From the NCBI GenBank assembly GCA_021784575.1, contig JAJYHX010000002.1, positions 248,001 to 312,000 of the forward strand: 64,000 nucleotides of DNA, in the 5' to 3' direction. The position numbers and the translations under genes are program-made. The stretch comes from Nitrospirota bacterium (GTDB lineage: Bacteria > Nitrospirota > JACRHJ01). Shown one piece after another: positions 13,468-63,751 of this stretch. The notes beneath the pieces are model-generated. The model did not search any database and had not been told where the DNA came from. It saw only the letters and a program-made list of their open reading frames with translations. Position 1 is the first letter of the stretch, and every line of letters starts with the position of its first letter.

Positions 13468-13473
13468 TTTTCA

Positions 13474-13572
13474 CCCTCTCCCGGCCTTCGGCCTGCCCTC
13501 CCCCATCAAGGGGGAGGGTAAATTCCTGCACCCCTCTCCCGCAGCTGGGAGAGGGGCCGGGGGAGAGGGCTT
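13474..13572. repeat. Dispersed GC-rich repeat (CCCTCTCCC family)
   Basis: Two nested palindromic units of the type CACCCTCTCCC..GGGAGGGT and CACCCCTCTCCC..GGGAGAGGG. Related sequence occurs at 29442-29533, inside rsmD at 55535-55580, and at 56877-57000. Non-coding here. It separates the beta-propeller gene from the tRNA cluster. Confidence 0.7.
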
Positions 13573-27264: not shown

Positions 27265-28446
27265 TTATTCTCTTACCGTTATATACTCGTAAAGGGATTT
27301 CGCCTGGCCTTTGTCCAAAAGCGTAACCAGTTCCTCGAAGACCTTCCGGAGGTCGTCAAGGCCCAGGTCGCGCCCGCCAAGCCCGAATATCTTGTTTATC
27401 GCAACCGGCCTCTTCGGCAGGTCGTATAACGCGCTCCTGACCTCTATGAAGAGCGGGCCGCCCGCGGCGCCGAAGCTGTCCGCGCGGTCAAGCACGCAGA
27501 GGGCCTTAAGGCCCTTCAAGGCGTCCGCAATCTCGAGATACGGGAACGGCCTGAAGAGCCTCGGCTTTAAAAGCCCCGCCTTCACGCCTTTCGCGCGGAA
27601 TTCGTCCACGACGACCTTCGCCGTGCCCGCGGCGGAGTTCAGCGCGACAATGCCTATCTCCGCATCATCCATTTTATAAGTCTCAAACAGCCCGTAGCTT
27701 CGCCCGGAGAGCTTCCCGTATTCCCTGCCGACTTCAATGACGATGTTCTTCGCGCGCTTGTGCGCCTCGTGGAGTTGTTTCCGGGACTCGATGTAGTAGT
27801 CCTGTAGGTGCAGGGCGCCGTATGTGACCGGGTTTGCGAGATCGAGTAGCGGATAGGCCGTCCCCTTATACGGCCCTACGAAATCCCCGACCTGCCGGTC
27901 GTCGAGAAGCTCGAGGTTCTCGATGGAGTGCGAGATTATGAACCCGTCCATGCAGGACATTACCGGCAGGTGCAGGTCCGGGTGCTCGCCTATGCGAACC
28001 GCCTGGATTGTGTTGTCGTATGCCTCCTGGGCGTTCTCGGCGTATAGCTGTATCCAGCCGGAATCCCTCGCGCCCATAGAGTCGGAGTGGTCGCAGTGTA
28101 TGTTTATCGGGGCGGAAAGCGCCCTGTTGACGCAGGAGAGGACTATCGGCAGCCTGTTCCCGGCGGCGATGTAGAGCATCTCCCACATGAGCGCGAGGCC
28201 GTTTGCGGATGTGGCGTTCATCACGCGCCCGCCCGCCGCAGCCGCTCCGATGCACGCGCTCATGGCGGAATGCTCGGACTCGACCGTCACAAGCTCCGTG
28301 TCCACCTGTCCGTTTGCGACGAACGTGGAGAACTGCTGCATTATCTCCGTGGACGGAGTAATGGGATACGCGGCGCAAACGTCCGGGTTTATCTGGCGCA
28401 TGGCGTTGGCCACGGCCACGTTTCCGGTCATAGCTACTTTCTTCAT
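27265..28446 (-). CDS. porA: Pyruvate/2-oxoacid:ferredoxin oxidoreductase, alpha subunit
   Basis: A 393-residue alpha subunit: MTGNVAVANAMRQINPDVCAAYPITPSTEIM is the classic opening (substrate-binding threonine in PITPS), followed by VESEHSAMSACIGAAAAGGR and ATSANGLALMWEM. The C-terminal half has the transketolase C-like fold (GLLKPRLFRPFPYLEI). Overlaps porD by four bases and precedes porB by 10 bases. Confidence 0.93.
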   Translation of the reverse strand: MKKVAMTGNVAVANAMRQINPDVCAAYPITPSTEIMQQFSTFVANGQVDTELVTVESEHSAMSACIGAAAAGGRVMNATSANGLALMWEMLYIAAGNRLPIVLSCVNRALSAPINIHCDHSDSMGARDSGWIQLYAENAQEAYDNTIQAVRIGEHPDLHLPVMSCMDGFIISHSIENLELLDDRQVGDFVGPYKGTAYPLLDLANPVTYGALHLQDYYIESRKQLHEAHKRAKNIVIEVGREYGKLSGRSYGLFETYKMDDAEIGIVALNSAAGTAKVVVDEFRAKGVKAGLLKPRLFRPFPYLEIADALKGLKALCVLDRADSFGAAGGPLFIEVRSALYDLPKRPVAINKIFGLGGRDLGLDDLRKVFEELVTLLDKGQAKSLYEYITVRE

Positions 28447-28814
28447 GCCTTCACCGCCTTCTTCTCTTCGGCCATTTTGAGGGCTGCCGCCTTTGCCTTC
28501 TCAAGCGCGTCGGGCTTTGCTCCCTCGGCCTCGGACATCATCACTATGGATTTCACCTTCGAGGGGCATTCCAGCGCGCAGATGCCGCACCCCTTGCAGT
28601 GCAGGTAGTCGAACTCCCCGCGCTCGCCGTTTTTGTCTACGGTAATGGCCGCGTCCGGGCAGAACACCCAGCAGAACATGCACTGTATGCAGTTCTCCTT
28701 TATCCATATCGGGCGATCGCTCCTCCACGCGCCGGTATTGTATTTCTCGGCGTTACCCGCTTCCTTTATAAGCCCGCCTTCCGGCAGGTCCTTCCATCCC
28801 TTTGGCTTGCTCAT
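28443..28814 (-). CDS. porD: Pyruvate/2-oxoacid:ferredoxin oxidoreductase, delta (ferredoxin) subunit
   Basis: A 123-residue 2x[4Fe-4S] ferredoxin subunit with cluster motifs CIQCMFCWVFCPD and CKGCGICALECPS, preceded by the PorD-type N-terminus (GWKDLPEGGLI). The C-terminal Ala/Lys tail (EKAKAAALKMAEEKKAVKA) is longer than the core needs. It passes electrons from the TPP subunit to free ferredoxin. Coupled to both porC and porA. Confidence 0.93.
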   Translation of the reverse strand: MSKPKGWKDLPEGGLIKEAGNAEKYNTGAWRSDRPIWIKENCIQCMFCWVFCPDAAITVDKNGERGEFDYLHCKGCGICALECPSKVKSIVMMSEAEGAKPDALEKAKAAALKMAEEKKAVKA

Positions 28815-29387
28815 TTAAGACCTCACCTCCCCGTATGCCCTGCTCGCAGCGTCCAGGTTGCTCTGGATTATCTTCTCGGCGAATTTCTTTCCGAAGCTCG
28901 CCCGGATGTCGGCAAGCAGGGTGTCAAGCTTTATTACCTTCGTCGCCTTCACGACCGCGCCCAACATCGGCGTATTCGGCATGATGCGCCCGATGGTCTC
29001 AAGGCTTATCGCGTTCGCGTCCACGCAGAACACTTTCTGCTTGGACTTCAGCTTCATCTTCTTCTTCAGTTCGCCGGGGTCGCCCGGCGTGTTTATGACG
29101 AATATGGCGTCGTCCGTCGCGCCCTCCGTTACGTCCACCGTATCGAGGAGCGTCGCGTCCACCACGGCCACCACCGCCGGGTTCGTCACCTGGCAGTGAA
29201 TTGTCATGGGCGTTTCGCTTATGCGGTTGTACGCCCGAAGCGGCGCGCCCATCCTCTCCGGCCCGTATTCCGGAAAGGCCTGGACGTTCTTCCCTTCGGC
29301 CATGACCGCCTCGGCCAATACCTTGGCCGCCGTGACGGTTCCCTGCCCGCCCCGGCCATGCCATCTTACTTCGAGTATGCCTGCCAT
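28815..29387 (-). CDS. porC: Pyruvate/2-oxoacid:ferredoxin oxidoreductase, gamma subunit
   Basis: A 190-residue gamma subunit: EVRWHGRGGQGTVTAAKVLAEA and FPEYGPERMGAPLRAYNRIS are hallmark segments of the CoA-binding gamma domain. First gene of porCDAB, with GGAGGAAG before the ATG. Complete length. Confidence 0.93.
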   Translation of the reverse strand: MAGILEVRWHGRGGQGTVTAAKVLAEAVMAEGKNVQAFPEYGPERMGAPLRAYNRISETPMTIHCQVTNPAVVAVVDATLLDTVDVTEGATDDAIFVINTPGDPGELKKKMKLKSKQKVFCVDANAISLETIGRIMPNTPMLGAVVKATKVIKLDTLLADIRASFGKKFAEKIIQSNLDAASRAYGEVRS

Positions 29388-29441
29388 TTTACTTCCTCCG
29401 CTGCGTTGCCATGTATTATCCAGGTAATACTGCCTCCAGAA

Positions 29442-29533
29442 TTACCCCTCTCCCTACCCTCTCCCACAAAGGGGCGAGGGTTAAGTTTTTCACCCCTCTC
29501 CCGTTACTGGGAGAGGGGCCAGGGGAGAGGGTT
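29442..29533. repeat. Dispersed GC-rich repeat (CCCTCTCCC family)
   Basis: Two tandem palindromic units (CCCCTCTCCC..GGGCGAGGGTTAA and CACCCCTCTCCC..GGGAGAGGG..GAGAGGGTTA), close to those at 13474-13572. Fills the porC-recR gap and touches the recR stop. Confidence 0.7.
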
Positions 29534-30125
29534 ATTCCACTACCGTCCTTCCCTCCAGCGCCTTCGTAAGCGTCCCAGCGTCGGAGTATTCGAGTATGCC
29601 GCCGACCGGCACGCCGTATGCTATCCTTGTCAGCTTCACGCCGAACGGCTTCAGTTTCTTCGCCACGTAGAGAGCCGTGGCCTCGCCCTTCAGGTTCGGG
29701 TTCGTGGCGATAATGACCTCATCCACGCCGCCCTTCCCGACCAGTTCCACAAGACTACCGACCTTCGTATCCTCCGGCCCGATTCCGTCGAGCGGAGAGA
29801 GCGCGCCCATCAGGACGAAATATCTGCCCTTGTATGCGCCCGCGGCCTCGACCGCCATGAGGTCGGAGATTTCCTCGACGACCATGAGCTTATGGGAATC
29901 GCGCTTCGGGCTTGCGCATATGGGACACAGCTCGCCGTCGGCGATGTTGTTGCAGATGCCGCACGGGCGGGACTTCTCGCCCAGATCCGTAAGCGCCTTG
30001 GCGAGGGAGACCGCCGCGCCTTTGTCGGACTTCACGAAGTGAAGGGCGAGGCGCATCGCCGTCTTCTTCCCGATACCGGGAAGCTTCGAGAACTCGTCTA
30101 CAAGTTTATTTAATGATTCGGACAT
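29532..30125 (-). CDS. recR: Recombination mediator RecR
   Basis: A 197-residue RecR: N-terminal helix-hairpin-helix (LPGIGKKTAMRLALH), zinc finger CGICNNIADGELCPIC, Toprim domain (VVEEISDLMAVEAAGAYKGRYFVL) and the C-terminal Walker B-like segment. Works with RecF/RecO to load RecA at gaps. Follows dnaX and ybaB, the usual order. Confidence 0.95.
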   Translation of the reverse strand: MSESLNKLVDEFSKLPGIGKKTAMRLALHFVKSDKGAAVSLAKALTDLGEKSRPCGICNNIADGELCPICASPKRDSHKLMVVEEISDLMAVEAAGAYKGRYFVLMGALSPLDGIGPEDTKVGSLVELVGKGGVDEVIIATNPNLKGEATALYVAKKLKPFGVKLTRIAYGVPVGGILEYSDAGTLTKALEGRTVVE

Positions 30126-53946: not shown

Positions 53947-54924
53947 TCATGTCTGTTTTCTTAGCTCCACGCGCCTGAGGCTGTACATCACATCGGGCCT
54001 CGCGCCGCCCTTCCCGGCGAATTTCTTCACGGCCCCCCAGACAAACCCCGCGCCGTAGCCCAGGTGCAGAGCGGCGAAGAGAAACGGCATGACAAAGAAA
54101 TAGAGCGGGTTCTTCGCCTCGAGCGCCGCGGCCAGCGAGAATATAAGGCACAGGATAATATATAACAGGGCCGGGATAAAATAAACCGGATTCCAGACGG
54201 CAAGAAGCCCAAGGCAATAGATCAGGAACAAAGACGGCGCCATGTGCAGGGGCTTGAAGCCCTCCGGGTGCTGGTAGTTCTGGTCCATCCTGCCGCGCCC
54301 GTATGTGAAGACCTGCCTGAGATACGCCCTGAAACTCGGCCTCTGGCTCCTGTAAAGCCAGGCGTCCGGCACGTAAAGGAATATCCTGCCCTCCGAGACG
54401 AGCCGGTTTAAAAGCTCGTTCTCCTCGTTCGGGTAGAGGTTCTCGTTGAACCCGCCCGCATTGAGGAAAGCGGATTTTCTGAAGCTCAGGTTCGCAAGGA
54501 TAAGCTCGTTCTCCGTCCCGCGCCTCTCGGCCCCGAGTTTTTTGTATCTCGCCCGGATTGTCGAGCCGCCGAAAGGCGACGAAAGCGCGAGCCCAAACCC
54601 TTTTCGCAGAAACCCGTCCGAAGGCGGCGTTATAATCGGCCCGCCGACACCCGCGACGGAAGGGTCGGCATAGCGCGCCGCGACAGTCCTGAAAAGACCC
54701 GGCGTGGCGAGCGAGTCGTCGTCGAGGAAATAGAGTATCTCCCCCTTTGCCTCCTTCGCGGCCCGGTTCCTCTGGACGGAAGGCTGACGCCCCTCCGCGA
54801 CCAGCGCCTCGAGCCGCTCACCGGGGTAATCGACGTCCTTCAACGCCTCGAGCGCCCGGACGTATCCCCCCGGCTTCACGGGTATAATTACGGAGATGAA
54901 AGGGAAATCCATAGACCTCTTCAT
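53947..54924 (-). CDS. Family 2 glycosyltransferase with C-terminal membrane helices
   Basis: A 325-residue GT2: FISVIIPVKPGGYVRALEALKDV, LEALVAEGRQPSVQRNRAAKEAKGEILYFLDDDSLATPGLF (DDD metal site), GVGGPIITPPSDG and YPNEENELLNRLVSEGR, then two to three membrane helices (residues about 220-300). The start at 54924 (MKRSMDFPF) is chosen for position; 54912 is an alternative. First gene of the minus-strand glycan run. Confidence 0.85.
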   Translation of the reverse strand: MKRSMDFPFISVIIPVKPGGYVRALEALKDVDYPGERLEALVAEGRQPSVQRNRAAKEAKGEILYFLDDDSLATPGLFRTVAARYADPSVAGVGGPIITPPSDGFLRKGFGLALSSPFGGSTIRARYKKLGAERRGTENELILANLSFRKSAFLNAGGFNENLYPNEENELLNRLVSEGRIFLYVPDAWLYRSQRPSFRAYLRQVFTYGRGRMDQNYQHPEGFKPLHMAPSLFLIYCLGLLAVWNPVYFIPALLYIILCLIFSLAAALEAKNPLYFFVMPFLFAALHLGYGAGFVWGAVKKFAGKGGARPDVMYSLRRVELRKQT

Positions 54925-54925
54925 A

Positions 54926-54985
54926 ACTCCCCCCGCTTCGCTTCCCACTCTTATCTTAAGAGGGGGACAGGAGGGGGCGTTACTT
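54926..54985. repeat. Dispersed repeat (AACGCCCCC..TTAAGA..GGGGG family)
   Basis: AACTCCCCCCGCTTCG, CTCTTATCTTAAGAG core and GGGGGCGTTACTTAAG; clearly related to 30130-30195 and 57051-57092. It lies just upstream of the GT2 start and would be in its 5' leader. Confidence 0.6.
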
Positions 54986-55066: not shown

Positions 55067-55774
55067 ATGAGGATCTCGGGCGGAGAATCGAAGGGGCGGC
55101 GGATTGCACCGCCGCCACGAAGCCGGTCTGCCGGCCATTCGGGAGTCCGGCCCACGTCGGACAAGGTGCGGGAGGCGCTGTTCTCGATACTTGGCGAGCG
55201 GGTTAAGGATGCGGTATTCCTTGAGCTTTACGCCGGGACGGGCGCGGTGGGCATCGAGGCCGTCTCGCGCGGGGCAAAGCGGGCCGTATTCGTTGACAAT
55301 TCGCCGAGGTCCGTCCGTCTCATCCGCGAGAACCTCGAACGCTTAAGCTGCCGTGACAGGTCCGCCGTAGCGGCAAAGGACGCGCTCGTCTTCCTCAGGA
55401 AAACCGCGCGGGAGCTTGGGCCCTACGACATAGTCTTCGCCGACCCTCCGTATCACGAAGCCCTCTCCCGGCGCGGAGCCTGCCCCGGTATGTATAAAAC
55501 CGGTGCGCCACCATCCACCACGGGTGGGAAGGGTACATTTCCACCCTCTCCCTCGATGGGAGAGGGCGGGGAGAGGGTGAACATTCATGTCCCCGAATTC
55601 CTGGAGCTTCTCGGAAGCGCGGAGCTGTCGGATGTTTTACCGGAAGGCGCGCTCGTCGCCTACGAACACTTCAGGAAAAATCCGGCCCCGGAGCATACTG
55701 GGCGTCTTGTGAAGAAGAAGGACTATCCTTACGGCGATACGGTGGTAAGTCTGTATGTTGTAATGGAAGGATAA
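55067..55774 (+). CDS. rsmD: 16S rRNA (guanine966-N2)-methyltransferase RsmD with an in-frame insertion
   Basis: A 235-residue methyltransferase: MRISGGESKGRRI, VRPTSDKVREALFSIL (RsmD signature), FLELYAGTGAVGIEAVSRGA (motif I), and the catalytic DPPY. Directly after DPPYHE about 40 foreign residues appear (ALSRRGACPGMYKTG, then a Pro/Gly/Ser-rich stretch), encoded by a copy of the dispersed CCCTCTCCC palindrome; the normal fold resumes at EFLELLGSAELSDVLPEGALVAYEHF. RsmD is normally about 190 residues, so the insertion explains the excess. The start at 55067 is preferred to an upstream ATG at 55046. Confidence 0.85.
   Translation: MRISGGESKGRRIAPPPRSRSAGHSGVRPTSDKVREALFSILGERVKDAVFLELYAGTGAVGIEAVSRGAKRAVFVDNSPRSVRLIRENLERLSCRDRSAVAAKDALVFLRKTARELGPYDIVFADPPYHEALSRRGACPGMYKTGAPPSTTGGKGTFPPSPSMGEGGERVNIHVPEFLELLGSAELSDVLPEGALVAYEHFRKNPAPEHTGRLVKKKDYPYGDTVVSLYVVMEG
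55480..55600. repeat. Palindromic repeat inserted within the rsmD coding frame
   Basis: The core (about 55535-55580) contains CACCCTCTCCCTC..GGGAGAGGGCGGGGAGAGGGTG, matching intergenic copies at 13474, 29442 and 56877. The insertion keeps the frame open, adding about 40 codons right after the catalytic DPPY. Confidence 0.75.
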
Positions 55775-56558: not shown

Positions 56559-57147
56559 ATTTCCTCCTTTTACGCTTAAAAAAAACAGCTTTTGAACACC
56601 GGATTATTACTCTTTTAGAAAAAACTGCCCCCCTTTCCTTTTTGTATTTGATTCCCTGGTTCTGTTTTTGTGATTTTATGTAAATTACTGAAGCAATATT
56701 ACTTCAAAATCAATATAACTCATACGTCGTGATGTGTCAAGGCGCGCGCGAACGATTACGCCCGTCATTCCCGCAAAGGAGGAACTCCAGGAATTTTCAG
56801 GATATTCGGCTCGTCCCGAACATCCTGACCTTGCTCCCCGCCGGTGCTCATCGTATGGGCGCGAGTTCACTTGTGCCCGGACGTCAGCCCTCTCCCACCG
56901 TCGGGAGCCGGTTCCCTCCCCCAGCAGCGGGGGAGGGCAAAAGTTTACCCCTCTCCCTTTCATGGGAGGGGGTGGCCGAAGGCCGGGAGAGGGTTCGCCG
57001 CCACCTCCACGCCTGGCATTCTGAGCAGCGCGAAGAATCCGCAGTTGTCATAACGCCCCCTCGTTCCCCCTCTTATCTTAAGAGGGGGATGAATGATGAT
57101 GCTATTCGCTAATACTTCAACGCAGGCACCCGTGAGCAATCCTCATC
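56559..57147. other. Repeat-rich intergenic region
   Basis: No gene is supported. It should hold the promoter of the secreted protein gene (A/T-rich 56575-56720). Then come in order: a GTCATTCCCGC palindrome (56761-56796), CCCTCTCCC units (56877-57000), a 'CATTCTGAGCAGCGCGAAGAATCC' type unit (57012-57046) and an AACGCCCCC..TTAAGAGGGGG unit (57051-57092). It is a mosaic of all the short repeat families found elsewhere in the window. Confidence 0.65.
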
Positions 57148-62260: not shown

Positions 62261-63751
62261 TTAATGCCCAAAAAACTTTTGGAACACGGTTTTGTTTTTT
62301 TTCTGAAGCACCCTTGCCGACGGCTGGTTCACGGCAGGAAGGCTCGGAGGCTCCTTCGGCCTGTCGACCGGCTGAAGCCTGTCGACAGGCTTCGGTCTTT
62401 CCACGGGCCTCAGCCAGTCCGCCTGCTTCGGCCCATCGATGGGCTTCGGCCTGTCGATGGGATTAAGTCTGTCCGCAGGCGCCGGGGCGGGCGGCAATAC
62501 TTCCACGGCCTCTGTCGCATCGGCCCCCTCGCCGGAAAGCTCCACGTCGAGCGATACCTTCAGGATGACTTCTTTTGTCTCGCCATCGCGGGTCCTGATG
62601 CGCACGGGGAGCGTGAAAACAAGCCCGGTTACTTCCGGCGCCATGGTCTCCGGCCTGTCGCATACCGGAAGCCCCCCGGCCTCCGGCACAGGGTTAACTA
62701 TCACCTCGTCCTTTATATTCCCTGCGGATAGCTCGGGCACAGGCTCCGCGGCGGGCGGTTCCGGCGAAGGCCCGGCCTGCAAAAGCTCGTCAACTGTCTC
62801 TACGGGTTTATCCTGCGCCCGAGTTTCGATGTCTTCAGAGAAAATCTCCGGCGCCGGTTCGGACATAACCGAAACTGGCGCTTCCGGCTCAGGAAATGCT
62901 ATATCCTCCTCAGACCATTCCATTATCGACAGCGGCATGGGCGGTATCTCGGTCTGCGGCTCAGGCTCCGGAAGCTGTTCATGCTGCATCCCCTCAACCG
63001 CTTCCGGTTGTTGCGGCTCAGGCTCCGGCTCCTGGTCGGGCAATGATATATCCGGCGCGGGGACCGCAACCTTTACCTTTATTATCTCTTTTTCAATGTC
63101 TTCGGCTGTCCTGCCGCCTCTCGCGCTCTCGGCGCTGATTTCCTCAAGGTCGATCTGGTGGCCTTCCGGGTCCTGCTTCAGCTCATGCAGTATATATTTA
63201 ACTATCGCCGTAAGGGTCGGGAAAACGCCATCGCCCTTTACGGCGGAGGCCTCGAAATATGGAAGCCCCTGCGGATTTAAGTAATCCTCCATCTCACGGA
63301 CGGGCGAGGCGTCGGGAAGGTCTCTCTTGTTATACTGTATAACTATCGGGAATTGCGCGGCATTTATACCCATGTCCGAGAGGTTCCGCCTGAGGTTTTC
63401 AAGCGACTGGATGTTCTCGTTCATCATCGCGCTTTGGGAGTCCGCAACGAAAACGACGCCGTCCGCGCCCTTTAAAACCAGCTTTCTCGTGGAGTTGTAG
63501 AATACCTGCCCCGGCACGGTATAGAGATGGAAACGCGTCCTGAAGCCCTTGATTTTGCCCAGTTCCACGGGCAGAAAATCGAAGAACAGCGTCCTGTCCC
63601 CTTGCGTGGAAAGGGAAATCAGCTTTCCCCTGTTGTCCGGCCTTACCTTCTCGTAAACGCTCTGGATGTTCGTGGTCTTGCCGGACAGACCCGGGCCGTA
63701 ATAGACTATCTTTGCGTTTATCTCTCTTGTCGCGTAATTGACAAGCGCCAT
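62261..63751 (-). CDS. MglA-like small GTPase with a long disordered repetitive tail
   Basis: A 496-residue protein. Residues 1-195 are an MglA/gliding-type Ras-like GTPase: IVYYGPGLSGKTTNIQSVYE (P-loop), LYTVPGQVFYNSTRKLVLKGADGVVFVADSQ (switch II region) and IQYNKRDLPDA (base recognition, NKRD). Residues 200-496 are Pro/Glu-rich and low complexity, with a conserved-looking island TLPVRIRTRDGETKEVILKVSLDVEL, then about six imperfect 'RPKPVDRLxPxDRP' units near the end. MglA controls polarity and motility with MglB partners; none is adjacent. The tail may be a scaffold for binding partners. Confidence 0.87.
   Translation of the reverse strand: MALVNYATREINAKIVYYGPGLSGKTTNIQSVYEKVRPDNRGKLISLSTQGDRTLFFDFLPVELGKIKGFRTRFHLYTVPGQVFYNSTRKLVLKGADGVVFVADSQSAMMNENIQSLENLRRNLSDMGINAAQFPIVIQYNKRDLPDASPVREMEDYLNPQGLPYFEASAVKGDGVFPTLTAIVKYILHELKQDPEGHQIDLEEISAESARGGRTAEDIEKEIIKVKVAVPAPDISLPDQEPEPEPQQPEAVEGMQHEQLPEPEPQTEIPPMPLSIMEWSEEDIAFPEPEAPVSVMSEPAPEIFSEDIETRAQDKPVETVDELLQAGPSPEPPAAEPVPELSAGNIKDEVIVNPVPEAGGLPVCDRPETMAPEVTGLVFTLPVRIRTRDGETKEVILKVSLDVELSGEGADATEAVEVLPPAPAPADRLNPIDRPKPIDGPKQADWLRPVERPKPVDRLQPVDRPKEPPSLPAVNQPSARVLQKKNKTVFQKFFGH

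Follow-up and report, generated by a model that had tools for sequence, protein, structure and literature searches.

The extra segment of the rsmD gene described here very probably arose when a small non-coding element that is dispersed in the genome left a copy in a tolerated loop, through a process that also took place in many other genes of the lineage. The segment lies in a stretch of 64,000 nucleotides from a Nitrospirota bacterium, here called the window. The window's own genome is called G000. G001–G004 belong to the same genus, G005 to the same family, and G028 to a distant family of the phylum.

The identity of RsmD is supported by the TIGR00095 equivalog model, whose cut-off is just exceeded (118.3 against 117.5 bits), and by a match to Pfam PF03602. 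An alignment of 15 RsmD proteins shows DPPYH, then a short loop, and then a helix, which begins as VPEFLELL at position 55589 in G000. The loop reads ADARGA in G001, ADEGPK in G003, and EEVGDK in G005, while the rsmD of G002 matches both flanks with 15 nt separating them. The net gain of G000 over G001 is 38 codons, and the original loop residues were replaced rather than merely interrupted. A preliminary description of the window had reported a palindromic repeat of about 40 residues at 55480–55600, inserted just past the catalytic DPPY. The alignment with relatives confirmed that the insertion is real and extended it to 44 codons (55457–55588), starting at the first nucleotide after DPPYH, which ends at 55456. 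G001–G003 and G005 have a short loop or none at this site, and no relative examined shares the segment without similarity to the repeat. At the same loop site, the rsmD gene of G004 carries a different in-frame segment of about 52 codons, with the C-terminus of the gene hidden by an assembly gap. The core of this segment is a different repeat, which has copies in all five congeneric genomes. The features are collected in Table 1.

Table 1. Coordinates of the rsmD gene, its insert, further copies of the element and RNase P RNA genes (window positions unless a contig or locus is named).
Feature	Position	Strand	Remarks
Full-length element copy	13472..13572		Outside conserved genes
Full-length element copy	29446..29534		Sole spanning ORF 28434–30110 (+), without Pfam match
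rsmD (16S rRNA G966-N2 methyltransferase)	55067..55774	+	235 aa from ATG, frame intact, insert-bearing
Second, smaller palindrome-bearing loop, N-terminal part of rsmD	55118..55142	+	GCCGGTCTGCCGGC, read as RSRSAGHSG; missing in G004 and G005
Catalytic motif DPPYH	55442..55456	+	Invariant across 15 aligned RsmD proteins
rsmD extra segment EALSRRGACPGMYKTGAPPSTTGGKGTFPPSPSMGEGGERVNIH	55457..55588	+	44 codons between DPPYH and helix VPEFLELL, from alignment with relatives
Peptide GTFPPSPSMGEGGER			Predicted to be read from the rsmD loop
Palindromic element, outer inverted repeat to outer inverted repeat (CCCTCTCCC ... GGGAGAGGG)	55461..55577		117 nt
Module A, GGCGCGGAGCCTGCCCCGGTATGTATAAAACCGGTGCGCC	55470..55509		Second dispersed hairpin; occupies the place of GGCCTTCGGCC or GGCGCTACGCGCC in other copies
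Decayed inner palindrome 1 (ACCATCCACCACGGGTGGGAAGGGTA)	55510..55535		
Inner palindrome 2 and right outer arm	55544..55577	+	BoxC/intrastrand-triplex layout CCCTCTCCC-TCGAT-GGGAGAGGG-CG-GGGAGAGGG
Full-length element copy	56886..56996		Downstream of rsmD
RNase P RNA, G000	C1:45241-45711		L319
RNase P RNA, G002	L321:1490-2039		
RNase P RNA, G004	L317		
RNase P RNA, G005	L320		

The rsmD insert is a palindrome of palindromes. Between its outer arms (CCCTCTCCC at 55461 and GGGAGAGGG ending at 55577) lie two inner palindromes separated by a short linker, the first decayed and the second, at 55544–55566, intact. CCCTCTCCC or GGGAGAGGG occurs at 55461, 55544, 55558, and 55569. The common plan, drawn from 11 aligned copies of about 90–120 nt, consists of an outer inverted repeat, a variable small hairpin, inner palindrome 1, a linker, inner palindrome 2, and the other outer inverted repeat. 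In the rsmD copy, the variable small hairpin is exchanged for the longer module A, which has copies elsewhere in G000 (for example, C8:80182, C2:160511, and C5:182595). Terminal inverted repeats, a criterion for MITEs, are present (CACCCTCTCCC / GGGAGAGGGTG). Judged by sequence, the insert consists of two nested repeat types, the main one with the known BoxC/intrastrand-triplex layout, and its right half follows the BoxC/TM layout. The BoxC/TM motif pattern (Y tract, loop, R tract, short spacer, and R tract, with mirror symmetry) was found in 29 of 54 element copies. The tandem inverted pair is the consensus architecture; both motifs are present by pattern in 4 of the 54 copies, and the rsmD copy has one. 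As RNA, the insert has a strong predicted fold (z = −4.0). Covariation among the element copies did not exceed that of the controls, and no conserved RNA structure is therefore claimed. No Rfam family matched the element at the gathering threshold.

Other repeats are present in the same window. A copy of a third repeat family at 57011–57088 is 73% identical to the segment in the G004 rsmD. Another high-identity dispersed repeat lies upstream of rsmD (54917–54985), with several G001 copies at 82–92%. An array of 18-nt units rich in GCCTGTCGACAGGC palindromes occupies 62354–62485, and similar CCGGTCnnCCGG palindromes make small loops in rsmD and rsmB of the genus.

The element is widely dispersed in the genome and in the phylum. 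CCCTCTCCC/GGGAGAGGG was counted 184 times in the 2.1-Mb genome of G000, and the compact hairpin form 20 times, against 0 for a reversed-pattern control. Of the 61 genomes of the phylum searched, 33 contain the hairpin core, with a maximum of 246 copies. Independent BLAST matches of the insert were obtained elsewhere in G000 (E = 9.8e-13, 1.8e-12, and 6.4e-12). A covariance model built from 11 seeds, including the rsmD copy, gave 80 matches in G000 and 45, 42, 18, 11, and 88 in G001–G005, respectively; most places were counted once per strand, so that places number roughly half of the matches. The copy at 29446 was not counted as a genic insertion because its spanning ORF has no Pfam match. In copies that lie outside conserved genes, 3.5 of the 6 frames are open on average, compared with 2.8 for simple shuffles, and the lengths cover all three values modulo 3. 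The element may have a mild bias toward open frames. The spread of lengths and the share of open frames indicate that an element inserted into a gene without regard to frame would often leave it readable, so that selection would have to retain no more than the cases that are in frame and in a loop.

Full in-frame elements are also found in other genes of the genus. They occur in moeA/glp and a TMEM260-like gene in G000, in fmt, a GH57 glucanotransferase gene, and murQ in G001, and in rsmB, gpmI, and cca in G002. At these sites, the congeners have loops that are empty, shorter, or occupied by a remnant. In moeA, 33 codons in G000 correspond to 3–6 nt between the flanks in congeners, and the murQ, GH57, and cca sites are nearly empty in at least two congeners each. 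In gpmI, the element replaced a short GGAPAG-like loop that is still kept by congeners, and decayed element pieces are retained in the fmt genes of congeners. Shorter repeat-derived pieces were found in kdsA, rsmB, a nucleosidase, an AMP-ligase, a GSU2086-family gene, and bioW. The bioW piece is common to G000, G002, and G003, and the kdsA site to G000 and G001, which indicates that some insertions predate the species. Among the matches listed, 9 of 59 element places in the genus, rsmD included, are in frame in conserved genes whose homologs have empty, shorter, or remnant loops. The family had been considered otherwise intergenic, a view that must be abandoned, as roughly one-sixth of the examined copies in the genus lie in frame inside conserved genes.

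Two further candidates are unconfirmed, namely an nfi-glycosylase fusion in G000 and an epimerase gene in G002. The fusion (L237:868-2322, minus strand, contig C10) combines endonuclease V with an HhH-GPD glycosylase domain and has a palindromic element close to where the two meet. At that site, the congeners are only 7–15 codons shorter, and therefore no clean empty site is claimed. In an LptA/LptD_N-like gene of G000 (L062:338-1177, minus strand), an element overlaps the 5' end of the ORF and would supply a new N-terminal stretch. Outside the genus, 5 of 29 element copies in G028 and 1 of 20 in G005 lie within ORFs that are coding-like on both sides. Pfam assigned G028 ORFs with an in-frame element to Sua5/YrdC, GHMP kinase, an epimerase, and FlgH (L299, L304, L309, and L301). 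These ORFs suggest that the in-frame habit may be wider than one genus.

RNase P RNA is affected in a similar way. It is 364 nt long in G003 (the model has 367 positions), 393 nt in G001, 458 nt in G004, 471 nt in G000, 479 nt in G005, and 550 nt in G002. It is enlarged in five of the six genomes, clearly by half-elements in three of them (G002, G004, and G005). The extra letters are located in P3, P12, and the J18/2 region. Half-element profile matches reach E-values of 1e-6 in G002, 1e-4 in G004, and 1e-3 in G005. The RNase P RNA of G000 holds a degenerate half-element with a weak match (E 0.2), yet the GGGAGAGGG core is present. The half-element profile search detected none in the 393-nt RNA of G001.

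The preliminary description had left a choice between a loop tolerated by RsmD and an inactive gene. The evidence speaks rather for the former: a disordered loop that lies near the active site and is tolerated. AlphaFold2 gave a pLDDT of about 95 for the core of RsmD and 37–53 for the insert, and the insert of the G004 protein was likewise predicted to be disordered. The top PDB matches of the RsmD model in Foldseek were RsmD/YhhF structures. In these predictions, the RsmD fold is intact and the insert is a disordered loop. The dN/dS of rsmD outside the insert is 0.15–0.20 in comparison with G001, G003, and G005, a signal that spans the time before and after the insertion. Few changes could be polarised. 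With G003 as outgroup, the G000 branch had 18 synonymous and 17 nonsynonymous changes and the G001 branch 18 and 20; the corresponding values were 20 and 18 against 18 and 15 with G004, and 14 and 17 against 16 and 10 with G005. A dN/dS of about 0.2 and the lack of clear acceleration on the G000 branch indicate that rsmD does not look dead. It is improbable that rsmD is a recent pseudogene, with an enzyme inactivated by the element and a frame still open by chance. RsmD is dispensable in some bacteria, the insert lies near the active site, 1–3 residues past the catalytic DPPY, and G000 has no other strong RsmD match to compare as a spare copy. However, the frame, the catalytic motifs, and the C-terminal domain are intact, and nonsynonymous changes are not clearly more numerous on the G000 branch than on the G001 branch with the three outgroups (17 against 20, 18 against 15, and 17 against 10). 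G004 has also kept an open frame around its own insert, although the assembly gap conceals its C-terminus, and similar inserts are found in gpmI, cca, and fmt, which are hard to dispense with.

Palindromic repeats are prone to misassembly, and a repeat-driven chimera could in principle have joined rsmD to repeat DNA. Such an artefact is highly improbable, as the repeat has one half of a single rsmD in frame on either side, an independently assembled G001 contig is collinear with the locus (20 kb of the window searched, one syntenic contig), and inserts of this kind recur in several genes of several genomes that were binned separately. The inserts might instead be useful, with the loop or an mRNA hairpin regulating translation or RNA processing and being kept by selection. 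The strong predicted RNA fold (z −4.0) would agree with this, as would the role of NEMIS and similar related MITEs as RNase III sites (PMC2229807). However, presence varies between species, the host genes have no common function, inserts decay to remnants, as at the fmt and kdsA sites, and covariation gives no support for a conserved RNA structure among copies; usefulness is accordingly considered quite unlikely. Removal of the segment by RNA splicing, or its skipping by ribosome bypass, before or during translation is hardly credible. The segment does resemble the bypassed byp palindromes of mitochondria of the yeast Magnusiomyces (cited in PMC6649704), but the inserts found in conserved proteins keep the frame and contain no stop, neither of which would be needed if they were skipped. 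In addition, a Gmk of Rickettsia that carries an insert of this sort is reported to be both translated and active (Abergel 2006, as reviewed in PMC2229807).

In the preferred explanation, insertion into a tolerated loop, the element is a composite palindrome of two inverted BoxC-like units, in which a second repeat hairpin is nested in the case of rsmD. It would have landed in the rsmD loop just past catalytic motif IV. The ribosome would read it as an unstructured surface loop, because the element is rich in GC with few stops and because the insertion that survived preserved the frame, and RsmD would still fold and presumably work. The loop is probably translated and either neutral or mildly costly. 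Insertions are probably frequent and frame-blind, and most genic ones would be purged. The survivors would be those in frame, in or replacing tolerant loops of proteins or RNase P RNA, and these would later decay. The data are consistent with selection after insertion, rather than with an element built to preserve the frame.

The mover was sought among RAYT transposases, and this candidate was rejected. The Y1 family (PF01797) has no match in G000, G002, or G004. The sole full-length Y1 gene of G001 (a 143-aa ORF) has no CCCTCTCC copy within about 2 kb around it, and G009 has 12 Y1 matches yet merely 2 palindromes. No target-site duplication was evident at the empty sites or flanks examined. 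The term mobile therefore rests on presence and absence among genomes. It can be speculated that BoxC-type triplex-forming palindromes need no dedicated transposase and spread when replication stalls and switches template at the structures they form. Throughout the phylum Nitrospirota, they would then be a general source from which essential genes gain new loops in their proteins and RNAs. This broader proposal is rather doubtful.

Descriptions of palindromic inserts that are read in frame in housekeeping genes come chiefly from the reduced intracellular Rickettsiales (Rickettsia and Wolbachia). Scattered MITE fusions apart, a 2024 review treated the same process in other prokaryotes as merely conceivable (PMC10969869). 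In comparison with the open-access literature in PubMed Central, the letters of these genomes point to RPE-like behaviour in another phylum, Nitrospirota, with BoxC-like DNA. Several families, species-wise presence and absence, and the involvement of RNase P RNA would suggest a general route of loop evolution. The widespread, unexplained BoxC/triplex repeats would gain a record of both mobility and tolerance, consisting of many natural insertions with empty-site controls. The affected enzymes can be expressed with and without the loop.

The element shares features with several known repeat systems. It resembles REP/BIME in its short palindromes in mosaic clusters; the GTAG/CGTC tag of REP/RAYT was not apparent in the copy flanks examined, which were read by eye. 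ERIC/RU-1, the 107-bp Correia elements, and Coxiella QMITEs are small non-autonomous repeats that give in-frame fusions, some in conserved genes (PMC2229807, PMC5896051). The Nitrospirota element is likewise a small repeat giving in-frame fusions, but its sequence is different, and the TA termini and target duplications of several of those families are not seen here.

BoxC/PIT/TM_ECO intrastrand-triplex repeats are known from E. coli and more than 260 bacterial genomes, and the BoxC/TM repeat of E. coli K-12, exemplified by CCCTCTCCCTGTGGGAGAGGGCCGGGGTGAGGGC (Table 1 of PMC4666352), was reported to be always intergenic (PMC4666352). The Nitrospirota element has a similar 34–37 nt motif (CCCTCnCCC, loop, GGGAGAGGG, 2 nt, GGGnGAGGG), which also forms tandem inverted pairs, and the exact layout is found at 55544–55577. 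In contrast to E. coli BoxC, it is also found in frame within protein genes, and RNase P RNA contains decayed halves of it.

RPE and WPE are palindromic dispersed repeats of about 100–150 nt that occur in frame in conserved genes, form several families per genome, and lose identity over time (PMC2229807, PMC10969869, PMC4224334, PMC6649704). In Rickettsia, RNase P RNA and tmRNA also carry palindromic elements (review: PMC2229807). The Nitrospirota element, compared with RPE by description, belongs to the same size class of about 100–150 nt and is likewise dispersed, palindromic, and strongly folded. It differs in its hosts, which are Nitrospirota MAGs rather than obligate intracellular Rickettsiales, in its GC-rich BoxC-like sequence and nested families, and in that two families strike the same rsmD loop in two species (G000 and G004). 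Since the host is a member of Nitrospirota and the comparison with RPE is one of description, the element is not filed as an RPE. The analogy with Rickettsia palindromic elements drawn in the preliminary description nevertheless holds for position, in-frame reading, recurrence in other conserved protein genes, and absence from relatives, and it reaches further, to the half-elements in the loops of RNase P RNA.
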